This document shows, piece by piece, positions 8,837-64,000 of a stretch of 64,000 nucleotides of DNA. Every line of letters starts with the position of its first letter. The stretch's first letter is position 1. Location of the stretch: assembly GCF_000003815.2 (NCBI RefSeq), contig NC_049979.1, forward strand, positions 22,163,602 to 22,227,601, given 5' to 3'. Both the position numbers and the translations under genes were made by a program. Below the pieces are notes generated by a model that was not told the origin of the DNA, did no database searches, and saw only the letters and a program-made list of their open reading frames with translations. The stretch is from Branchiostoma floridae (Eukaryota > Chordata > Leptocardii > Amphioxiformes > Branchiostomatidae).

Positions 8837-11800
8837 CTGCACAGGGGACAGGCAGTTTAGAAGAAAGCACTTACTACCACATTATTGAAGGAATTACAAG
8901 AATTACTATCCTATTCTAGCTCCTGTTAGCCTCTCTGATCGCATTCAAGAAGAATATCATTATCCAGACTTTAAACTTATAGACAGCTGGTAGAGCCTTT
9001 AAAGCTTAGTAGGCAACCAACTCCCAAACATCTGTTCACAACTATGGCCTGGGTAGGGTTGGGGCCAAGGCCATGGCCTGCTAAATGTGACAGGGACTTG
9101 ACATATGATTAGCTGGTAAACAAAAATGGATATCTGAGTGCATTGCATAACTCTCATTACTGCTAGTAATGGCCACATTCATAAATCACAGACAGTAATG
9201 TTAGATGAGACTAGATACCACCAGCTACATGCAGACAATATCTAAATGTGCTGATGCCTAGGAAATTGATGATGAGTTCTTGATTATGGTCCTAAAAAAT
9301 AATTTTTCTTTTCTCAGCTTTAGCTTACTTTACCTGTGACTTACCTACAATGATTATTTGGCACTCTCCCTTGGATAATTAATATTATGACCTTTGACAT
9401 TGCGATCAGTGCTTTAACTTGTCAAGTTGCTACTTAGACCTACCTTAGTCCCTGGTCATGCTCCCCATAGTCATCCAGATAAGGTGAAGGGTAGAAACAG
9501 CCTTTCGTCTTTCCAGTTAGTAGGAGGATTTGGCATTCCCTCACCCTGTCAATAACAAAAATTAATAATACTCCAAGTCAAATTCAAGACAACATTATCA
9601 GATGTAATATCAAAGTTTTTAAGACACTCTAGGAAGTCAACAGTGGCTGTGGCTTGTAACACACCCGATCCTTTGATCTCGGAAATTAAGCAACATGCAG
9701 TTGGGTCAGTACTTGGATGGGAGACCACCAAGGAAGACTGGATGCTGGGTCATGCCGAGTGGGAGAGTATAGAGGCTAAACACACTACACTACCAGTGGA
9801 CTAGCCCCCTTCTGTAGTGCTTAAGCTTAGCTAGGAAGTCAACCTAAACACACAAGTACAGGAGCTATCTACATGTACACCCACCTGAGGAATATCCCCA
9901 CCCCAGCCCCACATGTGTACCCACCCCAGCCCCACATGTGTACCCACCTGAGGAATATCCCCACCCCAGCCCCACATGTACACCCACCTGAGGAATATCC
10001 CCACCCCACATGTACACCCACCTGAGGAATATCCCCACCCCACATGTACACCCACCTGAGGAATATCCCCACCCCAGCCCCGCATGTGTACCCACCCCAG
10101 CCCCGCATGTGTACCCACCCCAGCCCCACATGTGTACCCACCCCAGCCCCACATGTGTACCCACCTGAGGAATATCCCCACCCCAGCCCCACATGTGTAC
10201 CCACCCCAGCCCCACATGTACACCCACCTGAGGAATATCCCCACCCCAGTCCCACATGTGTACCCACCTGAGGAATATCCCCACCCCTGCCCCACATGTG
10301 TACCCACCTGAGGATATATCCCCACCCCTGCCCCACATGTACACCCACCTGAGGAATATCCCCACCCCAGTCCCACATGTGTACCCACCTGAGGAATATC
10401 CCCACCCCAGCCCCACATGTGTACCCACCTGAGGAATATCCCCACCCCTGTCCCACATGTGTACCCACCCCAGCNNNNNNNNNNNNNNNNNNNNNNNNNN
10501 NNNNNNNNNNNNNNNNNNNNNNNNNNNNNNNNNNNNNNNNNNNNNNNNNNNNNNNNNNNNNNNNNNNNNNNNNNNNNNNNNNNNNNNNNNNNNNNNNNNN
10601 NNNNNNNNNNNNNNNNNNNNNNNNNNNNNNNNNNNTGAGGAATATCGCCACACGTGCGCCACAGGTGTAGAAGTGTGCGGTGCAGGCCCCCACAGGTCCC
10701 CTTCCAGGTCTGTCTGGCAGCAGTAGGACTGGGAACACAGCATCTGTTCGCACACCAGACACATGGTGGGGGCACGGCTGTCATCACCATCAGACATGGG
10801 GCAGCTGAGGAGGACACACAGGAAGTATACCGGTATGTACAGTAGATACATATTGCACTATGACTTCACTGAAGAAAGGAATTGGAGGTTTTCACGGTGT
10901 TTTAAGTCGGCCGTTGAAACAATTCTGTAATACATTAGTAATACTTCAGAGGCATCACATTGGAGAAGTCACCACAAAAATAAAACAACTGCTAACATTT
11001 TATGATTTACAGTATGTTACTGCAGCTGGAAGGAGGTCTTCTGGAGCTTAAATCTAATCTGAGCTTGTTGGCAGCCAGTATGGGTTCAGGGACCTTAATG
11101 ACATGTCTTGTAGAGTTAGGCTTAACCCTCATCTCCAGGTGAAGTGATAGGAAGACAGCCAAAAGGTGAAAAGAAGACTTCACACCTATTTAAATGAAGG
11201 CATAGCACATTAAATGCACATCAGTTCCTCAGCGACTATACATGACATGCAACAGGTCATTATCAGATCTATCTATTCTTTTCTTATATATCTCTACTTA
11301 ACAAGACATACGTGAAGACGGATCCTCTGTTGATGACATCACTGTAGTCGTGTGGCAGGGGAACCAGTCTGTTCACCTCAACAGGGTATCTGGTAACATA
11401 TAAAAGAAAATAAACCTTCCACACATAATTAAACCTTCTAAACTATTTTCTGGCAGTAATGTGCCCAGCATTCTCTCCATCATTATGTAATTTTTCAGAG
11501 ATTGCTCAAAGCTCGCAGGCCCTGATGGGGTAGATTTTCAGGTGAGAAATATGCTTGAGTCTCTGCCTTTTTTTCAATTCAGCATCCTTCCACAGATCAA
11601 CAAAAGGGCCAACTGTGTTTCAGGGGCTTAATAAAAAAATTTATCAATCAAAATTCTTCTTGTATTTGTATGGCTGAGTAAAAGTCTATTGTCGCCCTGT
11701 AATATTCTCATGCGTATGGACGGAATAGTATTCCTTTCAAAGAAGTGACATCTTGATGTGTCGATATAAAATAAAAATGATGGCGGTAACAGAACTTAGG

Positions 11801-17800: not shown

Positions 17801-20800
17801 GGGGCTGATTTGCTTTCAAACACAATACTTAGACAAGCAATGAGTGTTACCGTGTAGGTAGCTCTGGAAAACAGCTTCATCATTTCCTTCACACTGTCAG
17901 AGTAAGGGGCTCGAGCACTAAAAAGAACACCACAAAGTGTTCATGTCAAAAGACAATCAGTGTGTGATCTGCTAGTCAATACCTGATTGAAGTATCTTTT
18001 CCATTGCAAATGAAGCAAAATGCACATCATGTTTGGCGTGGCGTCCTTGTAACTTTGTCACAAAGTGACAAGTAGTCACATTGGAATATGTATCATTGTC
18101 GTGAATTTGATTGGTCATATTACGAAAACAATGTTGATCTGACTTATCAACTCGATGAAACTATTAAACTAAATGCAACACAGCAAAGGGGGACATGAAA
18201 AAAAAAGATATTAATCATTTGTTCACATATTGTATAAATTCATTCATATCTGCAGAGTCTGACATAATTTCATAGTAGAAATGGAGAGAAAGTATTTGGG
18301 AGTCTTTTAGGCTTTGCATTTGAAACAATTCTGTAGTATAGTAACAATGAAACAAAAAAAGCTAATGTGTGATATCAAAAACCCTGAAATGAAACTGTCA
18401 CAAAAATTCTGTAGATTTATAGTGTGATGAGACATGTGCTACCCACCCAGTTTCTGTCATGTACTCAAACAGCTGCTGGAAGCCCTGAGCAGCCATCTCT
18501 GCCATGTTCTTGGTGATGCTGGGTAGGGGGCAGGGGGACAGCACAGGCATGTCATCTGTGGGCAAAATCACACGTTATTAACATAAACAAGATGGCTAGG
18601 TGGTCGTGTGGTCATGGTTGTTGAATCATTCTTAGAATCTAAAGGTTCTGGGTTAAAAGCCCTAGCAGGTTCCAATGTATGTCCTTGGGAAAGGTGCCTA
18701 CATTGTATTTCCTCACTCAACTCAGGCGAGCATTAGCACCTTTGTACGAAAAGTAGTTTTGGTTACATGCAAGTCTGGGTATCGACAACAGCTTGGATTC
18801 AAACTTACAACCTCTTTGTCCCGTGAGGCAGAGTAGCTAACTACTAGACTTTGCACACTAAATGTGCAAAGTCTGCAACAAATAAATGACCATCACTCAT
18901 AACATGAGGATATACAGCTAGATAGGTTCCAACCTGAAGACTCCATTTTGTCCTCCTCTTCCTTCATCATGGCCTGTTGACTCGCTTCCACCGTCTTTTT
19001 CAGCCCGTCCAGCCAATCACTGAAGCTCAGACTGATGTCCGCAGACACACTAGGAAAATAAACAGGCATATTACTAAGTACTACTTTATATCATCCATAA
19101 ATACCCAAGAAAATACCTTACTCTCTGATTTTTCTCATCTGTCTTACCTGTTACATCAAGTTCATGAAGGAAACTACTGTAAATTCACTTAATTTCAAGG
19201 AGACTTGATTTCAAGAAGTGAGAAAAGTAGATTTTTTCGCTGCATATCAATGTTTTAAGATGTACTGTACATTATGCATGTTTTCCCATTTTTTGTATTC
19301 TCTAGTCATATTGACCATCTCCAGAGGGGAAGAAAATTTCCATCACACATAAATTTACTTTTTGTGGCTTTAACAACAAAAATACATTAAACATGCTAAA
19401 CTTGAAGAAGCCTACCTGTCAGGCTGTATGGTGGCAGACGGAGGAAGGATTGGGATGACGGTGTTGCTGAGGGTCTCGCAGAGTGGACACAGAAACTCCC
19501 CTCGGTCAACCTCATAGCTCAGGATGTGACGGAACCGCAGGGCTCTCCTCTGTTCCCTGGCAACTATAGCTTCATAAAATCTGCAGAAAAATAGTTGTAA
19601 GGAGGATGATTGGTAAAGCTCTTGGTTATCAAATTTAAGATGTAGGATCTGTTTGTTGAGGGCCGTCATGGCATCACTGCATACCAACCAAAAGCCTTAC
19701 AACCTGTCATCCTCTCGGAAATTAACAAGAAAGCCGGCATTTTGCCATCCTGCGTGTCTGGCTTATTGGAAATTTGAAATCATAGCGTTTGCAGAGTCAG
19801 AACCGGCCTAATAATTGTATATTTTTTGTACATGGGACAACTCTGCATGGTACAACTAGGTCTCACCTCTGCCAGCAGTCTGCATGCATGACATGTCCAC
19901 AGGTGCTGGTGTGGACACCATGGTACAGGTCCGGACTCACCAGCAAGGGGTCGTACTTATCTGCAGCAACATGGTTCATAAAATTAGTAATTCTGACTAC
20001 TCTGAATGTTACATCTTGTCACTCTCAAAAATCCAACCCTATTATCAGTGTGATAACATGCAGAGACAAGGTTGATAAATTACTAATTCTGCCAACTCTG
20101 AACTCCACTTCCTGTCACTTCTGCAACTCTGACCTTTTGTTCTTCACATGCCTTACAAATGAAAATAACTGTAGAAACAGACAGATAGACAAACATACCA
20201 AAATAATGGAGGTGAAAATGAACATACAGCCTTGTCAAAACAAGGCGGCAGGCGGCGATTTTAGCCGCCTACTTACATTTTTCCAGCCGGCTACTTTGGG
20301 GTAGAATTTCAAAAAATAAAAGTTTAAGTCCAGTGCTCCCCGTTACAAAATCCCTCAGCAATTTGTTTTGATAAACCTCTGGCAGTTTTCTGATAGTTGG
20401 CCCCCGGTTAGGGGTCATAGCAGGGAACCTATGCCGAATTTTTTTGAAATTCAGGATTTTTTTGTCAATAATTCAAAGTTTAAAGATAATAATAGTTACC
20501 CAAAATACACCCCCAAACCATATTTAGGGGTCTAAATTTAAAAATTTTCCCAGGGGAGGCCCCCCAGACCCCCCCTATGGGACGGGGGGACACCCCCCTC
20601 CCGTACCTACCCCCCGCTCGCCACTTCATGGCTCGCCGCAAGCCGCTACGCCTTGCCTGCTACTTTCACATATTAGCCCCCTACTCTAAAAGTTTGTGAC
20701 AAGGCTGACATAGGATAGCAGTCCACTAAACATGTGAGGGCAATTTTTATGAATTGTTATCTTGGAGTTAATGTCTATCATTCAGCATGAATACCCACAA

Positions 20801-23800: not shown

Positions 23801-26800
23801 CACCCTGTGCACCATGGCTTCCGTCCATGACCTGGACCTGGAGGAGTTGACCCTTCGGAGGACCATCCGGATGGTGTGGACAAACACGTCACACTCCAGC
23901 ACATTGACCAGGCTGCTGAACTCCTTACTCAGGGCAGGCAGTTCAGGGGGAGGGCAGGCTGCAGGAACAGGACAAATCTTCATACAATATGCCTTTTCCA
24001 AGAGAACAACATTGGGGTCCCAAACCACAAGAACACCTTCATAACCACACATTCACAATATACAATGAATGTGTATTAGTGTATTAGACAAGATACCTTA
24101 CAGCAGTTGCTCTCTGGTTAGCATCTTTTTTAAATCTGTTACTCGAGGCTTTAGTAGTAACCAACTACACATCATTTCATGTACAACTAATTATGATTGT
24201 GATTAGATTGAAATTGTGAGAAATATTAAGTCCAGTATTTACCAGTACTCTCTCCTTCTTGCTTTTTCCTCTTCAACTGAGCTTCTTCTGACTGTAGGGA
24301 GATGTCAGAAACAGTCGAGAGTAAAATTACCACCACCTTTGTATTTTGCACACTGTACTACGACTAAATATACAGTATTAGCTAAAGATGAAATCAGGTA
24401 CAGTTACTGACACATACATTTAGGTACAGAAGGTTTGGACATGTACCTGTACCTCTTTTTGGTAGGAAAAAACACAACAATAATGGAATAAGTCAAAAAG
24501 TTAAACTTAGTCTAGAGTTATACTAGAGTTTAAGTCTATTCAGTCACAGTAAAAGTACATTAATGTTCCTATATTTTGGACCGTATCTAAATTGCTCCAT
24601 ATGGTACTGGTCTGAATATACTGATTCTTTCAAATACTGGATGTTTCAAAATATATTATAATGATTATACAATCCTTGCCTTGGACTGATCAGCCCTGGT
24701 GTAGTGGTAGAAGAATGGGTTGTAGTCCTTGTAGAATTCTGGTTTCAGCTCATACCGACCCATTCCTGTCACCCCTGGTTTCCTACAGAAATAGAGGGAT
24801 GGTACATCCCACGTCAGTCATGAGATTATGGTGACCCAAAAGTACACTATTTTCACCTCTAATTTTCAAATCCTGTTTTTATAAACATTATTATGAGCAT
24901 TATGAGACACCGTAGCAGACATCTTAGCATAGTACTGATTGAAATCATGTAGTTTCTTCCCAACATTGTAGGTAATTCCAATTTCCAACTCATTCATACA
25001 GCATAAAAATACATTGTACAAGTTGAGAAATCATACAATCATACAATGTGCTAATTCAGCTACCTCTACTTTCAAAGATTTCATAAATTCAGCAATCTTA
25101 TAATCAGGAACAACAAACATATACAATTAAGGCAAATGTACAGAACATTGTGACAACAGTCAGCATATAGAATATTGGCAAAATAATAATATGTGTAACA
25201 GAAACTACAAGAACTGGTTATGCAAAAGGTGTAGTAAGCATAAAAATGAATGGGACAAAAACAGGTTTCACAAAACTTTCAAAAGAAAGGTTTAATAAAT
25301 CATGCTGGACCAGGCATGATTAAACACAACACCAAATCAGAAACGTAAAAACAACAAACACTGTAATTTGAGGGTGTTTTCTTTACTTACTTGAAGGAAG
25401 CGACCGAGTGCACCACACCTTCCAAACCAGTTTCGTAATTATTCTGAAAAACAGTTCCCCAAAGCGACATGTTTACTTACTTGAAAGTGGACACATCAGC
25501 AATGACTGCTTCCATACCAGTCTCATGCTTATGCTGAAAGTCACAGGTATTCAAATCATGGAGAAACCTTACACCTATAAAACTGGTATCAAGATATATC
25601 AAAAATTCCTAACAGTTATCTGAACTAACTTTCATAGAAGTATGGGCAAAAGAACATTTTTCCAACTCAATGTAGTCCTATATTGCACTGGATCTGATAC
25701 TCCAAAAAGAAGTTACACATGACCATTTCAGCTATTATCAAAAAACATAGCAAAGCAAAATTACTGAAACAACTTTAGATAATTTAATACCAGCTGTGGC
25801 CATACATGTGCACTCATGTCAGTTAAGAAGAAAACCATTCATAGTCATACCCCTCATAAATGTGATACCTTTTTCTCAAGAACCAAATGAAGTACAGTGG
25901 AAGAACAAAACCAGTAAAATATATGAGTATATAATTTTGGATATGATATCAAGAGTGTTGCTTACGTTTTCCGGCAGGGCCTTGGAGAGTTCGCTGTGTG
26001 CCATGGGGCTGATACACAACTGGTGGATAACCTCCCTCCTCACCATGTCCTCCGAACTCACCTGTCCTATACCTGGGACATACCTCTCACCTGGACAGGG
26101 ATACATACAACACACCTGATTTACATGGGACATACAATTTCCTCCCATCAATCAATTCTTAAGGCGACAAGAATACATACAGTAAGGAGTAATAGAACAC
26201 AGTTTATTCCCTTCCATGGGTCAGGTTGGTACCTCAAGTGATACAGAATACACTGTGTTGTATTTTTTCTATCCTATGGTTCTTGACTGTAATGCTAGAC
26301 TCAAGTATCAACTGATGTAGCAAGATGCTAGTTTCTTCCCTGCTATTTCTATGTTGTCTGCCTGCTAAATATTTACTTGGAAATGCCCAAGGACCAAGGA
26401 ACTAAACTGGTGTGTCTTAAAGCAGCCTGACAGCACAGTCTTACATGCACTCACCAGTGATTATGATCAGGAAGGTGAGAAACTCTTCCACCAAACTATT
26501 GGTGAACCTCAGAAGATCCTAAAGGTAGGAAAGATAGTCAGTTTACTAAAAATAGGGTTGAATGTGACAAGCTGTTTTCTACACTTTACATTGCGTAGAC
26601 TGAAGAATATCACTCATGTTTACTAATAGTTTACATCAATGTTGATCTTAATTAATTTACATCTGATAAGATTTGGGTTAGAAGTTATCATGTAGCCAGT
26701 CCTCCATTTTCTATTTTCTTCTTTATACTGTGACTTCATTTACTTTACAGTGACTTAATTTTGCAGTAGAGGGGGAAAGAAGGTTCAGTAGTAACACATT

Positions 26801-29800: not shown

Positions 29801-32800
29801 TTTTCGATCCGCTATTTCTTAATTTTTCTTGACAACGGCAAGACGACGACACCAAGTCGAGGTTCGCGGACCTAAAGTTATGGGATACACTGATAACATA
29901 TGGACTTTCGCCAAGCCAGTAGCAATGACCACAACTTGACTTGAGTTGACATCTTTGCCTTCCTGGGCCGCGACAGTGGCCCGCAACAGAGGTTCTCGCG
30001 GCTCAAATTCCCACAGACTTCTCGAAAGATACAACGAACTTTTTCGTCCATGGTTCAAACTGGCCAAACCAACGGTTCGCGCAGTGACTCATATCATGAC
30101 TTCCTGTGACGGTCACCCAGCTGACACGCTTGCCGGGGCTCGAGCCGGCAAGCCGGACGGCAATTTAGGCAATTGGCACCTCCTCGGCAAGCACGATTTG
30201 ATTAGATGTTAATAGCCTTTCTTGAAGCCGAATGAAGCCAGATCTACGGGAAGTTTGATACTATACATTACGCACCGTGGATCTGGTTCGAGATTATGTC
30301 CCTGGTACTGAAGAACCATCCCTGTCCCTGGTACTGATGGACCATTCCTGTCCCTAGTACTGAAGAACCATCCCTGTCCCTAGTACTGAAGAACCATCCC
30401 TGTCCCTAGTACTGAAGAACCATCCCTGTCCCTGGTACTGATGGGCCATTCCTGTCCCTAGTACTGAAGAACCATCCCTGTCCCTAGTACTGAAGAACCA
30501 TCCCTGTCCCTAGTACTGAAGGACCATCCCTGTCCCTGAAGGACTATTCCTGTCCCTGGTACTGAAGAACCATCCCTGTCCCTGGTATTGCAGAACTATC
30601 CCTGTCCCTGAAGAACCACCCATCCCTGGTACTGAAGGACCATTCCTGTCCCTGGTACTGAAGTACCATCCCTACCTGTGGTACTGAAGGACAATCCCTG
30701 TCCATGGTACTGAAGGACTATTCCTGTCCCTGGTACTGAAGAACCATGATTACATACAGAAAGATGTATTGTTACCACAGGAGCATGAGGATGTCTTCTC
30801 ACCTGGTGAAACAGTGAGTACCCATTCCTCTTCCACATCTCAGCATGAACCTGTGCTATCATGACTAGGGTCCTCAAGGGCTGCTCCAGCAGGTCCATAG
30901 CACTGGGGGGTTGCTGGCAATGGAAAGCACATAGTTATCACTAAAGATCTTTTGTTGACAATGGATGTTTCTAGTATGTTTAAGGAAGGAATAAATCAAA
31001 ACTAATTGAAAGTTCCTATTCGCTCTTGTCATTATCATTTTGACTTGGTCTTTGATTTTGAAGGTATTAATAAAGGCACAAAGAAAAACAAACAAACAGA
31101 ATTCAATATTCAACCAGGGTTGGACAGTTTTCTAAAATTCACTTGTCCTATTGGGCAAGTACATAAAAAATTTACTTACCGAACAAATTTTCACTTGCCA
31201 AAAATTTAAATGACTTTTTTCTACAAATCTTCACTTCCAACATAGAAATTCTTTTATTATTGGCTCTAATTTTCTGTGTTGACCAATGCTTGATGCAATG
31301 ACTGTGAAAAGTAACAAGTATATCAAAATCTCACTCATTGAAAAATCTTACTTACCGATCGGGCAAGCACTAGTGGGGTAGGACATGCGCTTGCCCGATG
31401 GGCTATTTCACTTGCCCGGGACAATCGGGCTTGAGGACTTGTCCAATCCTGTCAACACACATCAACAGTATTCCACACACAAACAAAACCACACACACAT
31501 GCACATCAGTAATGGCTATGAAGTGTTTGTAAGATCCCTAAGTAGCAAATGAGTATGATGTGCCTCTTGATAACATGTGGGTTGCAGGCTGGTCTTGTGT
31601 TTAGGGTTGTTAATTTATGAGTTGAATCTAAAAGTTCTGGGTGGGAATCCCTAGCAAGCCCCAATGTTCTGTCCTTGGGAAAGGTGCTTTACACCTATTT
31701 CCTCACTTTACTCAGGTGACACTGAGTTCCTAGTAGCTTTGCTTAGGGACATCCTTTCAGATGAAATGTAAACTTTAAGCCACTGGTCACGTGTTAAAGA
31801 TAACTACACTTATCAAAGAGTAGAAAAGTAGAAAAGAGTAGGTGTAATATCCAACTGTACAGTCTAGCTTTATGCAGCTTGTACCTATAGTACAAACCTG
31901 GTGTGTTATGTCTAAAGGCAGTTTATGGGCTATGTGAAACATACAAACAAGCATGAACACATGCACACATCAGCATTGTTGTATAGAATTTCTAAGATCC
32001 ATGTGTACAATGTAGCACATGCATGGCTTAAGTGTGTCTTATTAGACGTGTGGTTACCAGAGGTCCGTAGAGTTCTGGAGAGTTGAAGGTGAGGCCATGC
32101 TTCCCCAGCTGGAGGTACAACCCTGAGGGAACAAAATCAGGCAGAGATTGAGGCCAAGCCTGTCCATCACAATTCGCAGTTCAACCAATGAAAGCCTGAC
32201 AATTAGAGGTTTGACAAATAAGAGGTTTGGTCTATTCCCTTTTTCAACCTCCTTGGTCTATTGGGGCCCAAGCTGTCTTATTTGGAAGTACATAATTAGC
32301 ATGTTGAAAAATAAGACCAGAAATAGAAAGAAGCTAATGCATGGTTGCTTGGTCCTAACTCTAATGTTTGGTTAGAGCCTGCTGAATGCACTTCTGCATA
32401 AAGAGCTGTATCTAAGTATAAATGTAAGTAACATTTACCTCCTTTCAATGAGTTTCTGAGGCATGAACTAATGGCTAGCACTAGAAACCACACATTACTG
32501 TAAATTGATTTTACTTTACTTTCTCTAGAGAAAGATAAAGCAAATTCCCCAATATTTTAGGTTCACAGTTGGAGTAATTCTGCATCACAGTTGTTATACA
32601 TAATTGCAAATGCATCCTTGAAATGTCCACAGAGAATGACATCCATAAAATCTACTTCTGTGGCCTAAGGAACACCAGTAAAACAGACAGACTGGTGTAG
32701 AAGCCTACCTGCCAGAAGTCTACAGATGGGGAGATGGATGCTGACAGGCTCTCTGGACACAGTGTAGTCAACAACTATGGCTTCCTGGTCACAAACTGTG

Positions 32801-35800
32801 GAGAATCACGTGTAAGTTTAGGGACTAACACATGTACTTCAAACAACTCAACAACTTATGATAACTAACAACTAATAATCTGGTGGATGTACCAACTACA
32901 CAGTATTAAGTATCTACTGCCAGCTCAGAGAGTCAGTAGAAAACAAACCTCAGTGTAGTATGTGTAGTTATGCTGTTATGATTTTTGCAGTGTGGACCTA
33001 GGTGTTTGATATCCTTTCTATCAGGAATATTGATTTCTGTTTTTCATTTATCACCAGTTTTATCATAACATTAGGAAATAGCTAAGGCAGTGAAGCATTA
33101 TCTATGTGGTTATGGTTTCATGGTAAACTTTGATATGTAGCTGACAATGGGGAAATTCCAAATGTTTTTTTAATGTAATTTGCTATTAAAAGACTTTGTG
33201 GATAGGATATTTTCTCAGTAATGCTGCAAATGAGGCCTTTATCAGCTAAGTGTCTAATCTAGAACAGAACTGTGTTTTGATAATGTAAACATCAACCCTA
33301 GTGTTGGTAATGTTCTATAGAAATAGTTAGCTTCACAACTATATTCGGGACACTTCTTAATCTTAATGTTATCTTTATCAAAATGCAATGGGTCAGCCTG
33401 AAACACTTGAAACAACAAAAACATACACTACTTATCTTACTTCATGTAGCTTTCTTTCCTACAATCTTAATTTTGTCTTCTCTACAACCTTACCTCTCCT
33501 CTTGCACATCTTGACTGTGTCTGCAGACATCTGATTTCCAGCAGTGCCTTCACAACAATCCTGAAAGCATCTATCAGCACCATTTTCTGTAAGAAACATT
33601 CAGGCAAATAACTGTAACAACACTGAAAATGACTTGAGATGAAGAAAAAAATTAATGGTATCCTTTACATTCAGAGATCTTGGTTCTTTATTTTTTTTAT
33701 TTATTGGTTTGGCTGAACCGAACACACAGCCAGGGCTGCCCAACTAGCCTATGGCTATTACAAAGGGCTAGCCCTGCTGACAAACACATAAACAATACAA
33801 AAAAAAAGAACATTTGTATGTACATGGTGTAGGATAACTTACATATCATCTAAAATGGAGTATTATATATCTTGGTTCTTCACAAATAAAGAACCCTTGT
33901 CCCTGGTACTGAAAAACTATCCCTGTCCCTGGTACTGAAAAACTATCCCTGTCCCTGGTACTGAAAAACTATCCCTGTCCCTGGTACTGAAAAACTATCC
34001 CTGTCCCTGGTACAGAAGAACCATCCCTGTCCCTGAAAAACTATCCCTGTCCCTGAAAAACTATCCCTGTCCCTGAAAAACTATCCCTGTCCCTGAAAAA
34101 CTATCCCTGTCCCTGGTACTGAAAAACTATCCCTGTCCCTGGTACTAAAGAACCATCCCTGTCCCATGTATCAATCTCTTTCCTACATTGTATATGAATG
34201 TTTGTTGCTCAAATAAGGCAAAAGACATGCATATGCTACAAACTTGAAGACAAGAAATGAGATAACCTTTGATAAACTGTTCTGGGACATTTCTAGGACA
34301 TCTTCCCTAACTCCTTGTTGGCATGACAAGCATGTTGAATTAAGTAGACAAACACACACACAGACAAACTGACACCAAAAACAATTCCATTTCATGTAGG
34401 CAATAAGTGTAATGGAGGATGAGTGTGATAATAAGTGCTTACATCTGTGGCACACCAGCCGGCCATCATGGCTACAGCAGGGGCCAATTTGATCTGCAGG
34501 TTGAAGGCTGACTCCCACTCAGGCTCCATCTCTATGTGCTGCCCCACCTGCCGAGTCACAGAGTCCATGCCCTGGGACAAGAAAAACAACTCTTCTATGA
34601 GCTTCTCTGTAGTAAAACCTTGACTTAAGGGCTGACATAACAGTTGTATTGTGCAGAACACTGGCCAAAAGGGGATGGCATTATAGGGCATACTTAACAC
34701 CCTTGGGCACTTAATCCTGGTCGAGAGGACAGATCTGAGTTGTGCAGTCTGGTATTCACAGTATTCAGACGTTGGTTAGAACTACAAGAAACTTCAAGCT
34801 CTACCTGTTAACTACCCTTGTAATCAATGAAAAAGTTCCCACTATGATGACATGTGCCACAAAAAGCATGTAAAAGCACCTAAAGCACTTTCCCTGTTGC
34901 AAATAAAAAGGGTGGGTGGGTTGTTTTCTTTGCTCGCTCGCTTGCAAATTCAATTTGCACGCAGGAATCCTGCACGCAGGAATTTTCATCACGATCGCAC
35001 GATTTGTTCTAGTTCTGGAGATACATTCCTGGAAACGCCCCTTCCTCACGCTCACATGCTACTGAAAACTGTACCTGCATCGAGGTCAGCAGTTCCACCA
35101 TTATCTTGAAACCATTCAAGAACTTTCTCTTCAACTGGTCATTCCACTGGTCTGGTACCATGGACAGCACATACCTGAAAAACAAACAGACATGAAATAT
35201 ACAGCTAACAACAATATCATTCACATCTTCAGAACTTTTCATTGATTTTGTTATGCAAAAAGTAGTTTTCTTCTTCATTAGACTACTGGTACAAGTTAAA
35301 TACAAATACTTCAGTTTGAACAAATATATCCAGGGAAGTTGCTGTTTGACCAATGAGAGCATCTACATGTCTGTTTAGTAATATTTGAATTCCTATGCTT
35401 TCATTTTGCATTTCTACATTTTGACAAAGGTGGGTGGGGCTCTGCCAATGGGATCAATCCATTATGACTTCTGACTTTCCCCATAATTTTCTGAGTGCAC
35501 AAGTGTGTTAATGCTTCAGGCTTACTTGAGGTCCAACAGTGGGAACTGCAGCCTCCTGAAGTTCTTCTGTAGCTTCTCCCTGTCCAGCAGGTACCTGCCG
35601 TGTCTACAGCTGGCACACTGGTCCAGGAACGTACGGATCACTATGGCCAGTAAGTCATGCTCCATGATCAGGTATCGAGCCTGGGATAAAGATGGCAAGG
35701 TGGTTTTGTGGTTAGAATGTCTAAGACCTATATCGCATTTCCAAATTGGGCAGCTTTCGGGAACAAAAAGTATATATTGAACTTAACAAGACATAAGAGA

Positions 35801-47800: not shown

Positions 47801-50800
47801 GCCTGACCGTAAGAGATTGTTTAACACACTACCTGGTTGCCATTTACCTGACTCTGTTGTCCAAGTCCCTGTTTGTGGATGTCACACCAGGGATCCTGCT
47901 TCCATGCCTCCACATCACCACAGTCACAGTACCCACCACCTCCAGACGTACTCATCTGTGGGAACATACAAATGTAGGACATTACATCAGCAACATCATA
48001 CGTCCTTTGTACTGTATGTTAATCATAACAAACTGGCACAGTTTCACCCCAGTTTTGTACAGTATGTATGAGCTATGTAAGACCAGACTAGATTTTATCC
48101 TAAATGTTAAGTATCTTTCCCAAGTCCCAAGTGTACAACATTGGAGCCTTCTAGAGATTTGTACTGAGAACTTTTAGATTTTAAGTCATAAACCATAACC
48201 ACAAGACCACCATCTTGTGTGTGTATCATTTTCTCCCTCACTTCCTGACACTCTAATGTATTATAATATCTACCAACCCTCAAGCACACAAACATTCAGA
48301 CACATGAAAAACAAAACCTCCATACACGTAGTACATGTACACAGGCAAGAAGCAGTGTGCATGATTGTGCCAGGCAAGAAACAACTAGAAGTCTACCTTG
48401 ATTAAGTTACCCCTCAGAGAACCGCACTTCTACCATCAATGATGCTCACTGCCACACTTTTGATCTATACTGATTTATTGAGAGACTGTCCCAGATGCTA
48501 CTTAATTGGACACACTTTTCCCATTGATATCACCTCTTGTGTGCCATTTAACAGCATGAACCAAATAGTGCTGATCCTCTATCTATACCCGCTCAAGGCT
48601 AAACATATCAATGTATCTGTCCACCCGGGGACTACCAGTTAAGTGCAGCGGATCAGAAGTTAAACAAGTAATCTGTTCTGGCAGTACAAAGCTCTGGTCA
48701 GCCATATTTCCTGCGCAGAGCTTTGCTGAGGGAGTTCTGAGCCTGATGAGTGGCTGTATGCAGGCTGGATGGCCACTGTCTCCAGAGGCAAGCTTTTTGC
48801 TATACAAGCTCCTCTTTCACTCCTACACTGTAGGTCCTCCTCGGGTCAATTTTCAACTCTATCCCCATTCCCTTGATGGCCGTATGGTGGTAATACTTCA
48901 GCAAACAAACTGTTTCACAAATTCAAAGGAATTGCCTATCTTTTATCTGTGACGCTGCAACAAATTCCAATAAATGCAAGATTCATCAGAGCTCCTAGTC
49001 AGAATACTGGCTTCATATGCACTTTTGTGCACCCAAAATTGCAGCTGTGTACCTCATTTTTGACTGAGGGCTCACTGGTGCACTTAGAATATTAGATAGT
49101 TAGATATATAATGTCAAATATCTAAGTATAGAGTTACGTAGCTCAAGGTACAGTTGTGTGCATATACATGTACTAGCGTGGAACATATTTTTGACACAAA
49201 TACAAGTGTCAGGAAAAAACTTTTGCGATACCAATTGCGTAAATTTTTAAGTTAGCCATACAACTGGGGGTCAGTGCCACATATTAAAGCTTGTAACTGG
49301 GTTGGCAGATTTTTTTCTGACATTCTTCTTAATTTCAAGTTATGCAAACTGTTTCTGATCACCTAAATTTTTAGGTTTGGCATACCAGTCCATGAGTCCA
49401 CCTATTCCTAAAAGGTGAATTTACAGCCCTGCACATGACGTAACAAAATATAGATATATTTAAAGACCTATAACACAATGCATGTAATGTATTAAAGATA
49501 ATTACTGTTGGCTTACAAATGTATGTAATAAGGTACACATATCGTTGATACATTGCTTCAGCCCTAATGGTGTCAGTACAAGGACTGAACAAGATTGGAC
49601 AAGATAAAGAAGATACACGTTCCCATCTGTACTGACTTCTTAGACTGTCATCTAACAACCAGCATTAAGACACCAAAGGGATTAACCAGTGTCTTCAACT
49701 CATCTCTTCTGATTTAAGAAACTGCATAAGATGCCATTCTCACGGCTTATAGATAAATAGGTGGGTGACATTTTATACAAGTATCTTTGACATGTTTGCT
49801 TGGATGTCAAAACTAGTGATGATATGACGAATATCGAGAGTTACCAAAGGCTGGCTGTTCATTTTTGGGAATACTTACATGTAGGCGCACTAGTGCACCC
49901 ATAAGTCAAACTTTTGCTACACAGAAAATATATTGGGAGTGCAACAAAATATAGCAGTAGAGTGTCAGCAAAACCTAATGAACCTTCTTCAAACCTAAAC
50001 CTGGACTAAATTGTTTGTGAAAACTTGTGGNNNNNNNNNNNNNNNNNNNNNNNNNNNNNNNNNNNNNNNNNNNNNNNNNNNNNNNNNNNNNNNNNNNNNN
50101 NNNNNNNNNNNNNNNNNNNNNNNNNNNNNNACAGCCTTGTCACAAACTTTTAGAGTAGGAGGCTAATATATGAAGGTAGCAGGCAAGGCACGTAGCGGCT
50201 TGCAGCGAGCCACGAAGTAGCGAGTGGGGGGGAGGTACGGGAGGGGGGTGTCCCCCGTCCCGTAGGGGGGGTTTGGGGGGCCTCCCCCTGGGAAAATTTT
50301 TTAATTTAGACCCCTAAATATGGTTTGGGGGTGTATTTTGGGTAACTTTTATTGTTATGTTTAAACTTTGAATTGACAAAAAAATCCTGAATTTCAAAAA
50401 AAAAATTGGCATAGGTTCCCCGCTATGACCCCTAACCGGGGGCCTGGCTATCAGAAAACTGCCAGAGGTTTATCAAAACAAATTGCTGGGGGGTTTTGTA
50501 ACGGGCAGCACTGGACTTAAACTTTTATTTTTTTAAATTCTACCCCAAAGTAGCCGGCTGGAAAAATGTAAGTAGGCGGCTAAAATCGCCGCCTGCCGCC
50601 TTGTTTTGACAAGGCTGCATCATGTAAATTCCTCAGTGCCAACATAGTCTTTGACATTTGCAAGAAAATTTTTGTTTTTTTTGTGATCCACCCATGATAT
50701 TAGTCATGAGGCATATTGCATAAAATTCTATCATAACAAATTAATTTTAAAGGAATCTTCACATGTACACGCTTCAACACATATTGCTTACCATGAAAAA

Positions 50801-53800
50801 AACAACAACAGACATATGACTATGAGTAAGGGAGGTTTGGCACCAAGTAGTGATGTGTGCAAGCCATGAAGATACACATACAATAAGAATGGAACATCAC
50901 TGTGAAGAAGGGCAATAGCAATAAAGTACAAAGCAATTCACCAATATGTGATCCACCAAAATAAAGTTTTCTAATGGACCACAAAAAGTGGTCATATTGA
51001 CCAGGTCAGGGTGGCTACTTGTACAGGTTTAACTGAGTTTGACACCACAGTTACATCCCTACCTGCAGGAGTATGTTGGCTCTCCCACTTTGAAGACCTT
51101 CCCACATAGCTGGGGAGGGTTGTTGAGGGACTGAAGCTGCTGAAACACTGCGGCTGGGTTCCCTCCACACAGGAACCACTCCAGCGGCTCAAACAGTACA
51201 TCCCTGCAGGGGAGAGGGGGAATTCACTGAAGAGACTTTATGGCAAGGTGGTTAAGGTGCTTGACTTAGAATCAAAAGGATATAGGTTTGAATCCCTAGC
51301 GGGTCCCAAATGTTGTGCAGAAATACGAAAAAACCTCCTCGTAAAATAGAAGGCTCTTTCATTAACCCTGAAATGTCTGTCAGTTTTCCCACAATTTTGA
51401 TAAATCACTTTTTCTGCCAACTCTGAACTCTACTTCCTATCAGTCTGGATGAGACTATTTTATACCCCATTTCATGTCACTCTGTGGTGAGATGTGCCTA
51501 GCATATTGAAATAACTGCTGAAACACAAACAGAAACACACAGTAAAAATACCTCTGTACACAATAACTCTGTAAACGGAGGTGAAAAAAGCGACTACCTT
51601 GAAAGTTTTTCCTCTGCCTGGACAGCATCAGGTGTCCTCTGTGTGCTGATGGCCACCTCTGCTGAAGTGAAGAATATTTTGGGCACCTGCTGTGCCCAGT
51701 ACTGGTACAGGGCATTCTTCAGCTGCCCTCGCTCATACGCCCCCTGCAGCTGCTGCTTGGAGGAATGAAAAAGGATCATTACTTGCAGTGCAACCTTTGA
51801 CAGGATGTAATTTGTTTGTTATATTTGATCAGGTGGGAGCCTCTTTCATAAAATTGATATGTACCCCTAGCTGTATTACTAAAAATCTTGAAAAGTTTGC
51901 GGTAGATTTATTTTCACCATGACGTCCCCACCACAAATCCCAACAATTGAAGGGACACAGCGAGTTTGTGTTTCCAATGCCAGTTGTACGGAATTGTTTC
52001 AACTGCAAACTTCGAACACTGCAAAAATTGCCTTTCTCCTAAATTGTGTTCCCACAAAAATAAATGAATTTACAGCAACAGTGCCAAGAGCAACCCCAAA
52101 AATCAAACCACTGAAAGTTTTTAAAGATCTACAGTAGTTCATATTTCCCTCCGTACATGTAGTTTCATAGTTCATGTTGGTCAATTCTTTACTTTTTTTG
52201 CTAGAAATTATACATCATTTATTACTAACTCTAGTCAGTATCTGTAACATAACCAGGATTTTATTTTAGTGCAATGGTAATGGCATGGTAGTGAAGCGAC
52301 CAATCAGGAGGTTGGTGTGGAAGGGGGGTCTTGGCCCTTCCACGGTGAGATTTGAAAAGGCACTCTCGGTACTATCACATGTAATTTGAGGGATTTGGGG
52401 GTCAGTTTTGAGTGGCATGTCATCATTTTTCATTGTTCAGACATTGGTTAGACATCGTTCAACAAGTAAATGATAGCAAGGTACGCCAGTTAAAAATAAG
52501 CGCGGCGGTCCTCATTTTAGCATGGTGGTTACAAATCATAGACAGAGTAGTGGCCCGATACGCTAAAATGCACTAGCTAGAACTCTAATAACTCGTCTTA
52601 TCATATACTAGTAGTACATGTATTGCCTAGGAGTAGCATGACCAGTTGTAGTAATGTGGTAACCAGAGCCAATTGTTTGAACAGGCCCACATTTCTTATC
52701 TATTTATATTAAACTCATCAATTATCACTTGAGGGCAAGTTGAGGCCATCAATTACGTTACAACACAATTATGTAAGATTTGATATCTGGCTGGAACTAG
52801 TGGTGTCATAACATACAAGAGCGGACAAGGATGTTATGAGCACAAACACAAAATAGATTAAAATTTTGGAATAACAAAAAAATCATTGCTACTGAAAACC
52901 CTGGAAAAAATTCACTTTCAGCAGTTTTTTACTTTAGTCAATACACTATACAGTGACATCTCCACATCTATCCATGGGACAATCCCACCCACGGAAAAAA
53001 ATCGCACTAGTCCAATCAGGCCAGTACAGTAGGACATGCTCTTCAATCGTAACTTTTACTGCCATGGGCAATCAGGCCATTGGACTCATCACATATGGAT
53101 ACAAGTTACGTTTTGTAGAAATCTCATTGTTTTAACTGAATCCAAAACCGCTGTAAAATGATTAGAAATGTATCCAAAATAGCTTTTCAGTAATAAAAGG
53201 ATGTTTACTTTTACGTTGATATTGACTTGATATTTTTTATATTTGGTGCAAAATAGGCTAAATATAACCTCGATACTGTCGAAGGCATGCTGGTGTCACT
53301 GTTGGGTCACTGTTGGGTCACTGTTGGGGCATCTTGCCACTTGCGTTATTTTCTAACTTAACAAAAAAAACCTCATGCTTGCAACCGTCACCTAGATAGG
53401 TTCGCTTGCGTCACCTCTAGGTTCCGTGGGGGTACGTCTGCATTATCAAACCCCGCAGCGACACAAGCACAGTGTGAGATACCACCTTAATACATCACAA
53501 TCTCTCCTTCAAACATGTGACTACTAGTATCATCAAATTGTCTTACGATAACTGCTGTCCTATAATATCTGTGCTATGCATTTGCCATCAATACTGCAAT
53601 AAAGCTCAACAAAATTAACGACAAACAAGAGCATGCTGTCTTTTCAAAGATAATGGTGAATGGACATTAATATATAAAAACATATGCAAGTGCTATTTAC
53701 TATTAATAATTTGCCTTTATCATCTGGCTCTAATTAGCTTGTTCACACATCCAACTGTGCTGCGCAGGTCAAAGGTGAAGGCCCCTGTAAACTGTTTTGT

Positions 53801-60114: not shown

Positions 60115-60763
60115 GTAAGCCTTGTTCTGCGCGATCGCGCCTCCTTGTCGGTCCGTAGGCACGCCAGAACGTCTCTGTAGTCTCTCTCCTGCATGCAGGA
60201 GTTGTCATGGGGTTAATGGGGGCTGTTGAGACGAGAAGAAGCCGTACGTCCGGCTGCGTGCGTAACTAGGTCAGACTGGCAGTAGAGAGAACCGTGTATG
60301 CATAGCCCGGTATCAACAGACGGGGGTTGGGTGAACAGGCGGGGTGAGAAATATGGCGTGAAACAGCCCCTCAGCTCTCCGAGGTGAATTTTTCCTATTT
60401 CAGGTACATGTTGATCAGTTATCACGTCAGTATGTGGTGACGTTGTTGGGTGTAACGCTGCTGTATGGATCAGAAATCCTGCTGTCCAGTGCGCTGGACA
60501 TACGCCTCCTCTCCGCGGCATGTCCCAGAGGGCCGAGCCCCTGACCGGACAGCCGCGGACGAGACGCGGTTTGTCCGCGTGCTGACCCCGAGACGCGCGA
60601 GTCCAGATGTAAAGAAACGACCCGGCAATGCCCGCTGGTAACCGCCATCCCATTTACCCAGCAGTACTACAACTGACGTACCGATAGTGTTTTTAAAACG
60701 ACTGTATACACGTGAATCTGAACATGGTATAAACACGCTGTGTTTCTCGGCTCTCCCGTGCAG

Positions 60764-61085
60764 GCTAGACCGTGAGCAGACAAGCGGCGCGTCGGTCCGA
60801 GCCATGGCCACGACCGCCGAGGGATGTAGCTCCACCGGCGACTCCAAACCGTCAACGACATCCCAATCCCTCGGACCAGGCACGCCATGTTCGCCCTCCA
60901 ACCTACCAGAGCAGGTGGGGCCTCTATCGGTACCTCGACCGAGCCAGTCGCAGGCGTCCCCGCCCGGGCTGGGCAGCACCATGACCAAGCGAGCGGTCCC
61001 GCCCGTCGCCCTGATCCCCTGCCAGGTGTGCGGCGATGTGTCGGTGGGCTTCCACTGCGGGGCCTGCGTCTGTGAAGCTTGCAAG
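60764..61085 (+). CDS. Nuclear receptor, first coding exon (first half of zinc finger 1)
   Basis: Nuclear receptors are ligand-regulated transcription factors. The start is ATG at 60804 (GAGCCATGGCC, good context), inside an exon with acceptor CCCGTGCAG. The 94-residue N-terminal part is Ser/Pro-rich, then the last 22 residues form zinc finger 1: C-x2-C-x13-C-x2-C, reading CQVCGDVSVGFHCGACVCEA plus CK. The exon stops at AAG/GTGGGT, phase 0, directly after the P-box lysine, so FF-R-R is in the next exon, outside the window or unrecognised. HCG replaces the usual HYG, and the P-box is CEACK, not CEGCK. From memory, CEACK occurs in ERR and in the first finger of two-DBD receptors; the second fits this text better, but I cannot place the subfamily. 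An alternative upstream ATG at 60687 would require reading through the likely acceptor. Confidence 0.85.
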
Positions 61086-64000
61086 GTGGGTTCCGACTTT
61101 TACTGGTGCGATATCATGGCAAAGAGTACAACAGCTGTCAATTGTTTTACTTCATTTGAATTACAGAAGACAATAGCACAGGTGTATAGGTATTCATGAG
61201 CAACACATACAGGTGTATCATATAGTATGAGCTCCAAGTTCAATGGCCTTACGTTACACAAGGTGACGACTTTATTTTGTCACTTATCGATACTTGTTTT
61301 GTATTGTGTGTGTTTACTAAAAATCATTAACAGTGTTAGATTCCTATTTACAAATTTTATGTGAATGGGGGGATGTTCATGCAAATATTCAGTAATTGCA
61401 TATTTCCTGATAGGTACTTTTTGTATACCTGAACAAATCTTCATTTTGTTTTATAGTGATATGTGAAATGTGGATATTTCACAATATATTTGCAATATAT
61501 TTGTTTGTGCTAAATTTAAAGATGGTTGCAGATTACATGGAAGAAATTATGAATCATTGATTTCAATGTTCAGGAATTATGTTACGCTTTGCAGAAAATG
61601 TTAATAATGTGCTGTAACTTATGTGTACAGATCACACTATACTTTAACCTATACATCTCACACTGTATAGGTTGCTAAAAGAGATGAACTTTTTTTTGCT
61701 CTATAGTTTTGACCATTGATTTACTAACAGTGCCAAGTTTTTAAAATTTTGGTGGAAAACTATGTTACTTAATTCATTTATTTAGTTTCCTTCAAAGAAA
61801 AAAAATACACAAACGCACAAGATATTTTCATTTTTCCACATTTGGGTGAACCAACTTGGATAGCGTTTTCTTGCACTCACAGCAAATACACATAGCAGTA
61901 TGTAGAAGCTTTAACTAGACAGTACTTACTTTGTAAGCACAAACCTTATAATAACTTCCAAGTTGAAGAGTTTTCCCCATATTTTTATCCTCATTCAACG
62001 TTCAACATTACTGTACGCACCCTTAACTGTCATAACGAAGATTTCATAAACGATACTCTGAGTTTAAAATATCCTGGATATAGAATTGGATGCAAGTCTT
62101 TCCGTAACTGCGTTAGCTTGACCTACTACTACTATTGTGATAAACTTCTATGTCCATGGTATATGTCGAAGCCTACTGTTGGATAAAAGGCCATTTGTAA
62201 CCAAGGAGGTTTCCTTGTTGTAACTATGTATGATTCCCTGTTTACAAAGCAACAAATACTAGTTCAAAGCATGCCCTCCTTAGCATATCTCACAATGCTA
62301 CCTGCTGTGTATTTTTATGACCAACATGTATTGTTACTTAAGAACACCAAGATTGAAAAAAATCTTTTATACTATAGCTGGCTCATAATTCATGATATCG
62401 CACATAGTTTTCCATTGCATATGATTGTTTGTTACAATTTGTATCTAAGTTTACAGATGACACACTGAGTGTGTGAGAACTTGATAGTGATTGTCGATAA
62501 TGTCTGCTTCTATTGATGCCAAAAGTTAGTGTTTATATCAATTGAAAAGGAAACGCTTTTCTACGAGTAGTTAACTTGTGATGACTGTTCAGTTACACCA
62601 TGAAGAGGTTTCTATCTACATGTAACGTTACCTCTGAGGATTCCATTATAATAGATATAATGTTATCTCCCTTCAGTTGTTGATCTACATTGTACACTGT
62701 AGCTATATAGAAGTTTCCTCTTCTTTTATCCTAGCCATTGGGAAAGTCATGAGGAGAGTCCTAAGAAAGTCTGTCAAGTAGCTTACAAAAAGCTTACTTT
62801 GGATGGCTGCCCCATATCAGTGCAAAAGCTACTTGTCATTTAATGCAACATATAAATGTATCTTCTGGGAATAGGAATTTACCCACTATTTTTACTCATG
62901 TTATTTTTCAAGAAAGAATATACTGTGCCTGGGCATGATAAAGTAATTCATGACAAACTCCCATTTTTGATTTTGATGTATACTGTTTTTGTGTGCTCTG
63001 AGTTATCAAGTAACTGTTGGTTACATCTTAAATTTGATACTATCATCGGAATCATTTTAGAAATGCCTTCTTCACAATTGATTATCTGAGTTGTACTTCT
63101 GGTCTATAGGTCTTCTGGAACTAGTTCTAGTAAGTTAAACCCTCATGCTATAGATCGCTTCATCTCAGTCATCTCTGTTATGGAACTCTTCAGAAGAGAC
63201 ATCACTGTAGAGAGATGTTTCATTCGATTTTACAGACTCAAATGTTTGGCAGCCAATACAAAGCTGAAAAGATAAAACAAAAACAGACGTAGAACTGCAT
63301 TTAAATCTCATATACAACTTACAAGAAATCATATCGTCTCCACTGCTATACTGAATAGATCTAGGTAAACCAGTGCACAGTTACTGCATGGAGGCAGTCT
63401 ACTCTCCAATGCACCCAAGCTGCCCTTTCTTTACATATTTACACAAATGGACTTTGGAATATTCCACATTGAAAGCTAATTTAGAAACTTAGTTACACTC
63501 GTGACTGACAGTATGGGGTGACTTTCTCACTCACTGTAACTTCTTAGTATTTTGTTATAGGAAATTAAACCAGACATGATCATGATCTTACCACTCCCTA
63601 GTTACTACAAAGATATTGAATTTCAAAGATGTTATTTGGAAAGAAAAGTTTCTGTTTTATCTTTTCTTATCACGTGCAGAAAGAAAGAAAGCACTATGGA
63701 ACAATGTTTTTGCATTGTGAGGTCTGTGTGTTTTCTGGCTCTGGGCTGTCTCCAGGATCTGTCCCTCTGTCTTGGGATGAAAAATTAATTCTTAAAATTT
63801 CAACCCCATCCATCGAAAAAAATCTGAATTTCATGACATCTAATTGATGAAAGTGTATTTTTGTAAGCTTGAAATGACAGGTTTATCGGCGAAAATTAAA
63901 AACACGGGCTACCAAACAATGAGTGGAACGGAAAAGAATTTAAGCAGAAGATAGCCCTGCATTTTGTGCAAAAAGTGGCCGTTAAACCCAATGAGTTGTT
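61086..64000 (+). other. Intron 1 of the coding part of the nuclear receptor (to window edge)
   Basis: Begins with the donor GTGGGT. AT-rich; I looked for the expected second exon (aromatic and basic residues after the P-box) and did not find it. A 16-bp palindromic insert lies at 62202-62217. Confidence 0.6.
62202..62217. repeat. 16-bp palindromic insert flanked by TTGTAAC
   Basis: Reads CAAGGAGG-TTTCCTTG, the same ends as the other two inserts with part of the centre lost. Seven matching bases flank it (62195-62201, 62218-62224). Confidence 0.65.

Follow-up and report, generated by a model that had tools for sequence, protein, structure and literature searches.

Two tandem, probably mutually exclusive exons in a UBR1/2-type ligase gene of Branchiostoma floridae

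Splicing switches built from mutually exclusive tandem exons are well described. In Branchiostoma floridae, a UBR1/2-family ligase gene carries two adjacent 53-nt exons on the minus strand, here called 28a and 28b, and the question raised by this locus is whether both are functional exons between which each transcript must choose, and what such a choice would do to the enzyme. The human mutually exclusive tandem-duplicated exons described in passages of PMC5740500 and PMC9741552 share with this pair their adjacency and homology, equal phase and length, the swapping of one segment and a frameshift if both are joined, whereas 28a and 28b are predicted from sequence only. Here, we analyse the pair within a window of 64,000 nucleotides, the whole stretch of DNA under study, and we consider it likely that the gene encodes a UBR1/2-type N-recognin in which an old tandem duplication would have been kept as a mutually exclusive pair that would fine-tune the ligase.

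The host gene and the position of the paired exons

Spliced alignment with a human UBR2 probe gave a minus-strand UBR1/2 model of 56 pieces running from about 51.8 to 8.7 kb, which took 28b of the two copies. The features on which the argument depends are the following:

8698-51203, minus strand: UBR1/2 gene, well-supported span (spliced alignment, tblastn, Pfam)
25966-26090, minus strand: upstream constitutive exon ("exon 27"), ends in phase 0 (spliced-alignment model; phmmer to human UBR1/UBR2)
25533-25481, minus strand: exon 28a, 53 nt, 17 codons plus 2 nt, phase 0 to 2 (PF22960, 124.9 bits in the spliced segment)
25444-25480, minus strand: spacer between 28a and 28b, 37 nt, from the 28a donor GTAAGTAA to the 28b acceptor TTTTTCAG
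25443-25391, minus strand: exon 28b, 53 nt, 17 codons plus 2 nt, phase 0 to 2 (PF22960, 124.4 bits in the spliced segment)
24680-24782, minus strand: downstream constitutive exon ("exon 29"), entered in phase 2, modelled GC donor (spliced-alignment model)

The initial annotation had assigned the gene to the UBR1/2 ligases, and this is borne out by the 306-residue piece bearing the exon, which matched the PDB entries 9wbv (2.1e-100), 9wbw (3.7e-93) and, for yeast Ubr1, 7mex (1e-13), and by the UBR1-like winged-helix domain (PF22960), which scored 124.9 bits with 28a and 124.4 with 28b. The ClpS-like N domain (PF02617, 65.3 bits) and the C-terminal PRT6_C/UBLC region (PF18995, 215.8 bits) are also present. 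The UBR box (PF02207) reached 27.7 bits against a cut-off of 25.2, over profile positions 43-69 of 69 only and in a search piece that left out a doubtful model exon; its first part was not found, a gap of 100 Ns (50031-50130) stands where it should be, and the missing part most likely lies in that gap. The Pfam scan of the piece given listed no RING family, and by tblastn the RING region keeps its Cys/His spacing, with 69% and 55% identity to the human UBR2 probe. Model exons 2, 4, 19, 25, 26, 40 and 41 are doubtful, exon 4 being filler that adjoins the N gap, and GC donors were modelled at two minus-strand exon ends, 28785 (gcaagt) and 24680 (gcaagg), the second belonging to the exon directly after 28a/28b.

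Several other elements were observed in the window. A minisatellite at 9871-10469 (minus reading; unit of about 40 bp, 13.7 copies by TRF) lies beside a 161-N gap (10475-10635); its unit resembles a UBR exon end with its donor, and in the exon just upstream the reading frame breaks near 10695, perhaps through an error in the sequence. On the opposite strand of a UBR intron, a full-length 5S rRNA-like match (9639-9751, plus; RF00001, 41.9 bits, gathering 38) is perhaps a 5S-derived SINE or a stray copy. Arrays of a near-identical 26-bp unit (TGTCCCTGGTACTGAAGAACCATCCC and a variant) occupy two different UBR introns, at 30297-30747 and 33898-34165. An open frame at 60642-61196 on the plus strand gave a sub-threshold match to the zf-C4 nuclear-receptor zinc finger (20.8 bits, cut-off 21.1) and may belong to a neighbouring gene as its first DNA-binding exon.

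The segment that the choice would swap

Exons 28a and 28b are identical at 31 of 53 nucleotides and differ at 22, and the 90-nt units that hold them are identical at 51 of 90. The differences fall 8, 3 and 11 times on codon positions 1, 2 and 3, fewest on position 2, both exons are free of stop codons in their reading phase, and the encoded peptides differ at 10 of 17 residues. Direct repeats, sought with a 20-bp minimum, were not reported at 28a/28b, an expected possibility at such divergence. Coordinates, length and similarity scores agree with the earlier description of two adjacent 53-nt minus-strand exons, 37 nt apart and coding for the same UBR1/2 segment, and each copy indeed runs from phase 0 to phase 2.

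The segment had been placed in a helical core of the protein; the estimate of about 17-18 swapped residues stands, and the location is corrected to the winged-helix domain (PF22960). It aligns to human UBR1 (9wbw), human UBR2 (9wbv) and yeast Ubr1 (7mex), all members of the same family, for each of which the deposited chain holds one version. In the alignment to yeast Ubr1 (E 1e-13, residue numbering verified), Asp952 is matched by the Glu of ETG[M/L]E and Lys965 comes just after the exon; the acidic residue aligned to Asp952 is kept in both 28a and 28b. A review (passages of PMC11668491) assigns Asp952 to a putative three-way zinc junction that also involves the UBR box and UBLC, and puts Lys965, whose alteration modestly affects chain elongation, near the donor ubiquitin. 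All six positions at which human UBR1 and UBR2 differ fall among the ten at which 28a and 28b differ (0.017 by counting), an overlap that may reflect only freely varying sites. Since the acidic residue is retained in both copies and the changes fall on other faces, we infer fine-tuning rather than an on/off switch: the swap would most likely adjust the coupling of the UBLC gate to substrate binding, or the rate of ubiquitin chain growth.

It had also been proposed that 28a is more like human UBR2 and 28b more like UBR1, which we reject on identity counts and BLOSUM sums. Over the 17 residues, 28a has 9 identities to UBR1 and 9 to UBR2, and 28b has 10 and 9; the BLOSUM sums (UBR1/UBR2) of 43/40 for 28a and 52/48 for 28b favour UBR1 for both. 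The M/L letter in ETG[M/L]E is the sole signal for such a split.

One alternative grants that both copies are used and sterically exclude each other, with the choice unregulated, the two proteins equivalent and selection merely keeping each functional. The conserved ETGxE, V, V and F positions are untouched by the 28a/28b changes, most of which are conservative, as this alternative would have it, but the divergence spans 10 of 17 residues and human tandem-exon pairs are mostly tissue-specific (abstract of PMC9741552); we give it a modest chance.

Probable use of both copies and the barrier to joining them

The pair was scored for similarity to human UBR1 (9wbw) and human UBR2 (9wbv). With scores of 58 and 55, 28a and 28b are the best two of 180 candidates, defined as stop-free, N-free AG-53nt-GT stretches in the whole window, 77 of them on the plus strand and 103 on the minus strand, and the next candidate scores 13; they are also the best two among 47,721 stop-free 54-mers, where the next score is 32. 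Simulations of neutral decay were run to the observed 28a/28b divergence under a simple substitution model, with the score taken from the two human proteins. The splice dinucleotides and an equal score were kept in 1 of 100,000 runs with 28b as source and in 0 of 100,000 with 28a as source; with mixed midpoint ancestors and 12 neutral changes, 209 of 100,000 runs were equally good, and this 0.2% is less extreme than both single-source results. Both copies look selected, and neither is degraded, as the Pfam wing scores of 124.9 bits for 28a and 124.4 for 28b indicate; together with the open frames and the top two family scores, this upholds the earlier statement that both are intact. When all 56 model exons were scanned for same-length in-frame duplicates, 28a/28b took second place by score ratio (0.49). 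Ahead of them stood model exon 2 (0.65), whose 11 residues are part of a 52-bp repeat with its other copy at 20066-20117; it is probably not an exon. This dispersed repeat (51391-51442 and 20066-20117, 86.5% identical) misled the spliced model into exon 2.

TTTCAG stands directly 5' of each exon and GTAAGTAA directly 3' of each. The splice sites had been called near-identical, which is true of the donors (8/8 of the first 8 intron bases and 9/10 of the first 10 alike) and only partly of the acceptors (8/10 of the last 10 bases, just 11/37 of the last 37). Donor scores are equal for the two copies, at the 51st percentile of the 53 other donors of the gene, and among its other acceptors that of 28a is weak (9th percentile) and that of 28b moderate (30th). 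The weaker 28a acceptor and the model's choice of 28b would fit a situation in which one copy alone is used, probably 28b with its better acceptor, the other being an exon-like duplicate that is rarely or never spliced. We think this improbable, given how rarely the simulations keep the score (1, 0 and 209 of 100,000), the few differences at codon position 2 (3 of 22), and a Pfam fit and donor scores that are equal for 28a and 28b.

Returning to the reading that both copies are retained as alternatives, their exclusion would follow from the spacer. The shortest of the other modelled introns, 55 in all, measures 67 nt and adjoins a model exon that is in doubt; the next is 101 nt and the median is 484 nt. 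A steric limit of about 50 nt between donor and branch point enforces the exclusion of OGDH exons 4a and 4b (passages of PMC7969005), and potential steric interference (<50 bp) was counted in 57 (9%) of 629 human clusters (passages of PMC5740500). A splice from 28a to 28b would be excluded because its branch point must lie inside 37 nt, below this limit, and with exons packed so closely one transcript can probably use only one of the two. That 37 bases are too few for an ordinary intron, as first supposed, thus agrees both with the published limit (passages of PMC7969005) and with the other modelled introns, which measure at least 67 nt. The expected frame shift is likewise confirmed, an early stop being computed for 28a joined to 28b; skipping both exons or retaining the spacer, which reads an in-frame TAA, also ends in an early stop. 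A barrier to joint inclusion, made up of the 37-nt spacer and the early stop, is hence present in the sequence.

No YTNAY motif lies within the 37-nt spacer. One candidate was found upstream of 28b:

25496, minus strand: YTRAY-type branch-point candidate for 28b, its A at -53 inside exon 28a, the only one within 120 nt upstream

This candidate was attractive at first, but it is doubtful because AGs at -38 and -34 intervene before the 28b acceptor; it was dropped for this reason, and the distance argument alone was kept. The YTRAY motifs upstream of 28a are also distant (-56 and -66), and an absent YTRAY means little, since only 30 of the 54 remaining modelled acceptors have one 15-60 nt upstream. 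A special RNA structure in 25376-25560 was unsupported (z 0.45, with 133 of 200 shuffled sequences equally or more stable).

The early stops that follow from joining 28a to 28b or from keeping the spacer could also be read as poison-exon regulation, in which double inclusion or spacer retention truncates the transcript and lowers the enzyme level; such regulation needs no family-like coding in both copies, yet 28a and 28b both fit the wing domain, and we judge it very improbable. Two alleles or misplaced reads assembled side by side are hardly credible even in a draft assembly with two N gaps (10475-10635 and 50031-50130), since these are not near 28a/28b and 22 of 53 nucleotides differ, far too many for alleles.

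Known systems and the meaning of a possible switch in this family

The mechanism proposed for the mutually exclusive pair would run as follows. Exon 28 would have been duplicated in tandem long ago and both copies retained; one spliceosome could not hold the 28a donor and the 28b branch point within 37 nt, and exon 27 would therefore join either 28a or 28b, each of which would then join exon 29, with frameshift and decay removing mis-spliced transcripts. The choice would swap 17-18 winged-helix residues, including the acidic residue aligned to Asp952 and ending just before the Lys965 equivalent, and would adjust the coupling between UBLC gate and substrate binding or the speed of chain growth, without turning the ligase on or off.

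Human UBR2 has full-length isoforms that share the same length. In OGDH, too, the exclusion of exons 4a and 4b is ascribed to a donor and a branch point lying less than about 50 nt apart, but there the intervening intron measures 118-131 nt in birds and mammals and distant branch points were mapped (passages of PMC7969005), whereas the whole spacer between 28a and 28b is 37 nt. Within the family, a human UBR2 splicing event (127390) in head and neck tumours is typed ME, for mutually exclusive, in a passage of PMC7227031 that names no exons, and it may or may not match the pair described here. The initial statement that no such switch is described in this family is weakened by this event. No description of the pair was found in the available main-text passages of the UBR1/UBR2 splicing literature, nor in the passages of PMC4465641, PMC9013439, PMC11668491, PMC7969005, PMC5740500 and PMC9741552, and the term 'UBR' does not occur in the main texts of the last two. 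Other passages report a 14-node UBR2 block absent from 20% of NK_cell pools (PMC11285346), name 'UBR2-202' within a passage on UBR4 (PMC12397408), place UBR2 among skipped-exon events (PMC13053314) or treat the splicing of Spo11, not Ubr2 (PMC5533463).

A bolder proposal, which we hold only tentatively and think unlikely as a whole, is that the choice between 28a and 28b would be regulated and act where UBR box, winged helix and UBLC come together, so that one gene would yield two N-recognins differing in autoinhibition or chain-building speed; the switch may also share its origin with the human UBR2 event. If that shared origin were true, this would be a splice switch of the N-degron pathway of bilaterian age, and if the human event concerned the same exon, the switch could be tested directly in cells of mouse and human. 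UBR1 and UBR2 decide the destruction of proteins with destabilising N-termini; a splice switch would let one gene make two versions of the ligase, and one located in the winged helix would amount to a natural experiment on the coupling between UBR box, UBLC gate and ubiquitin transfer.
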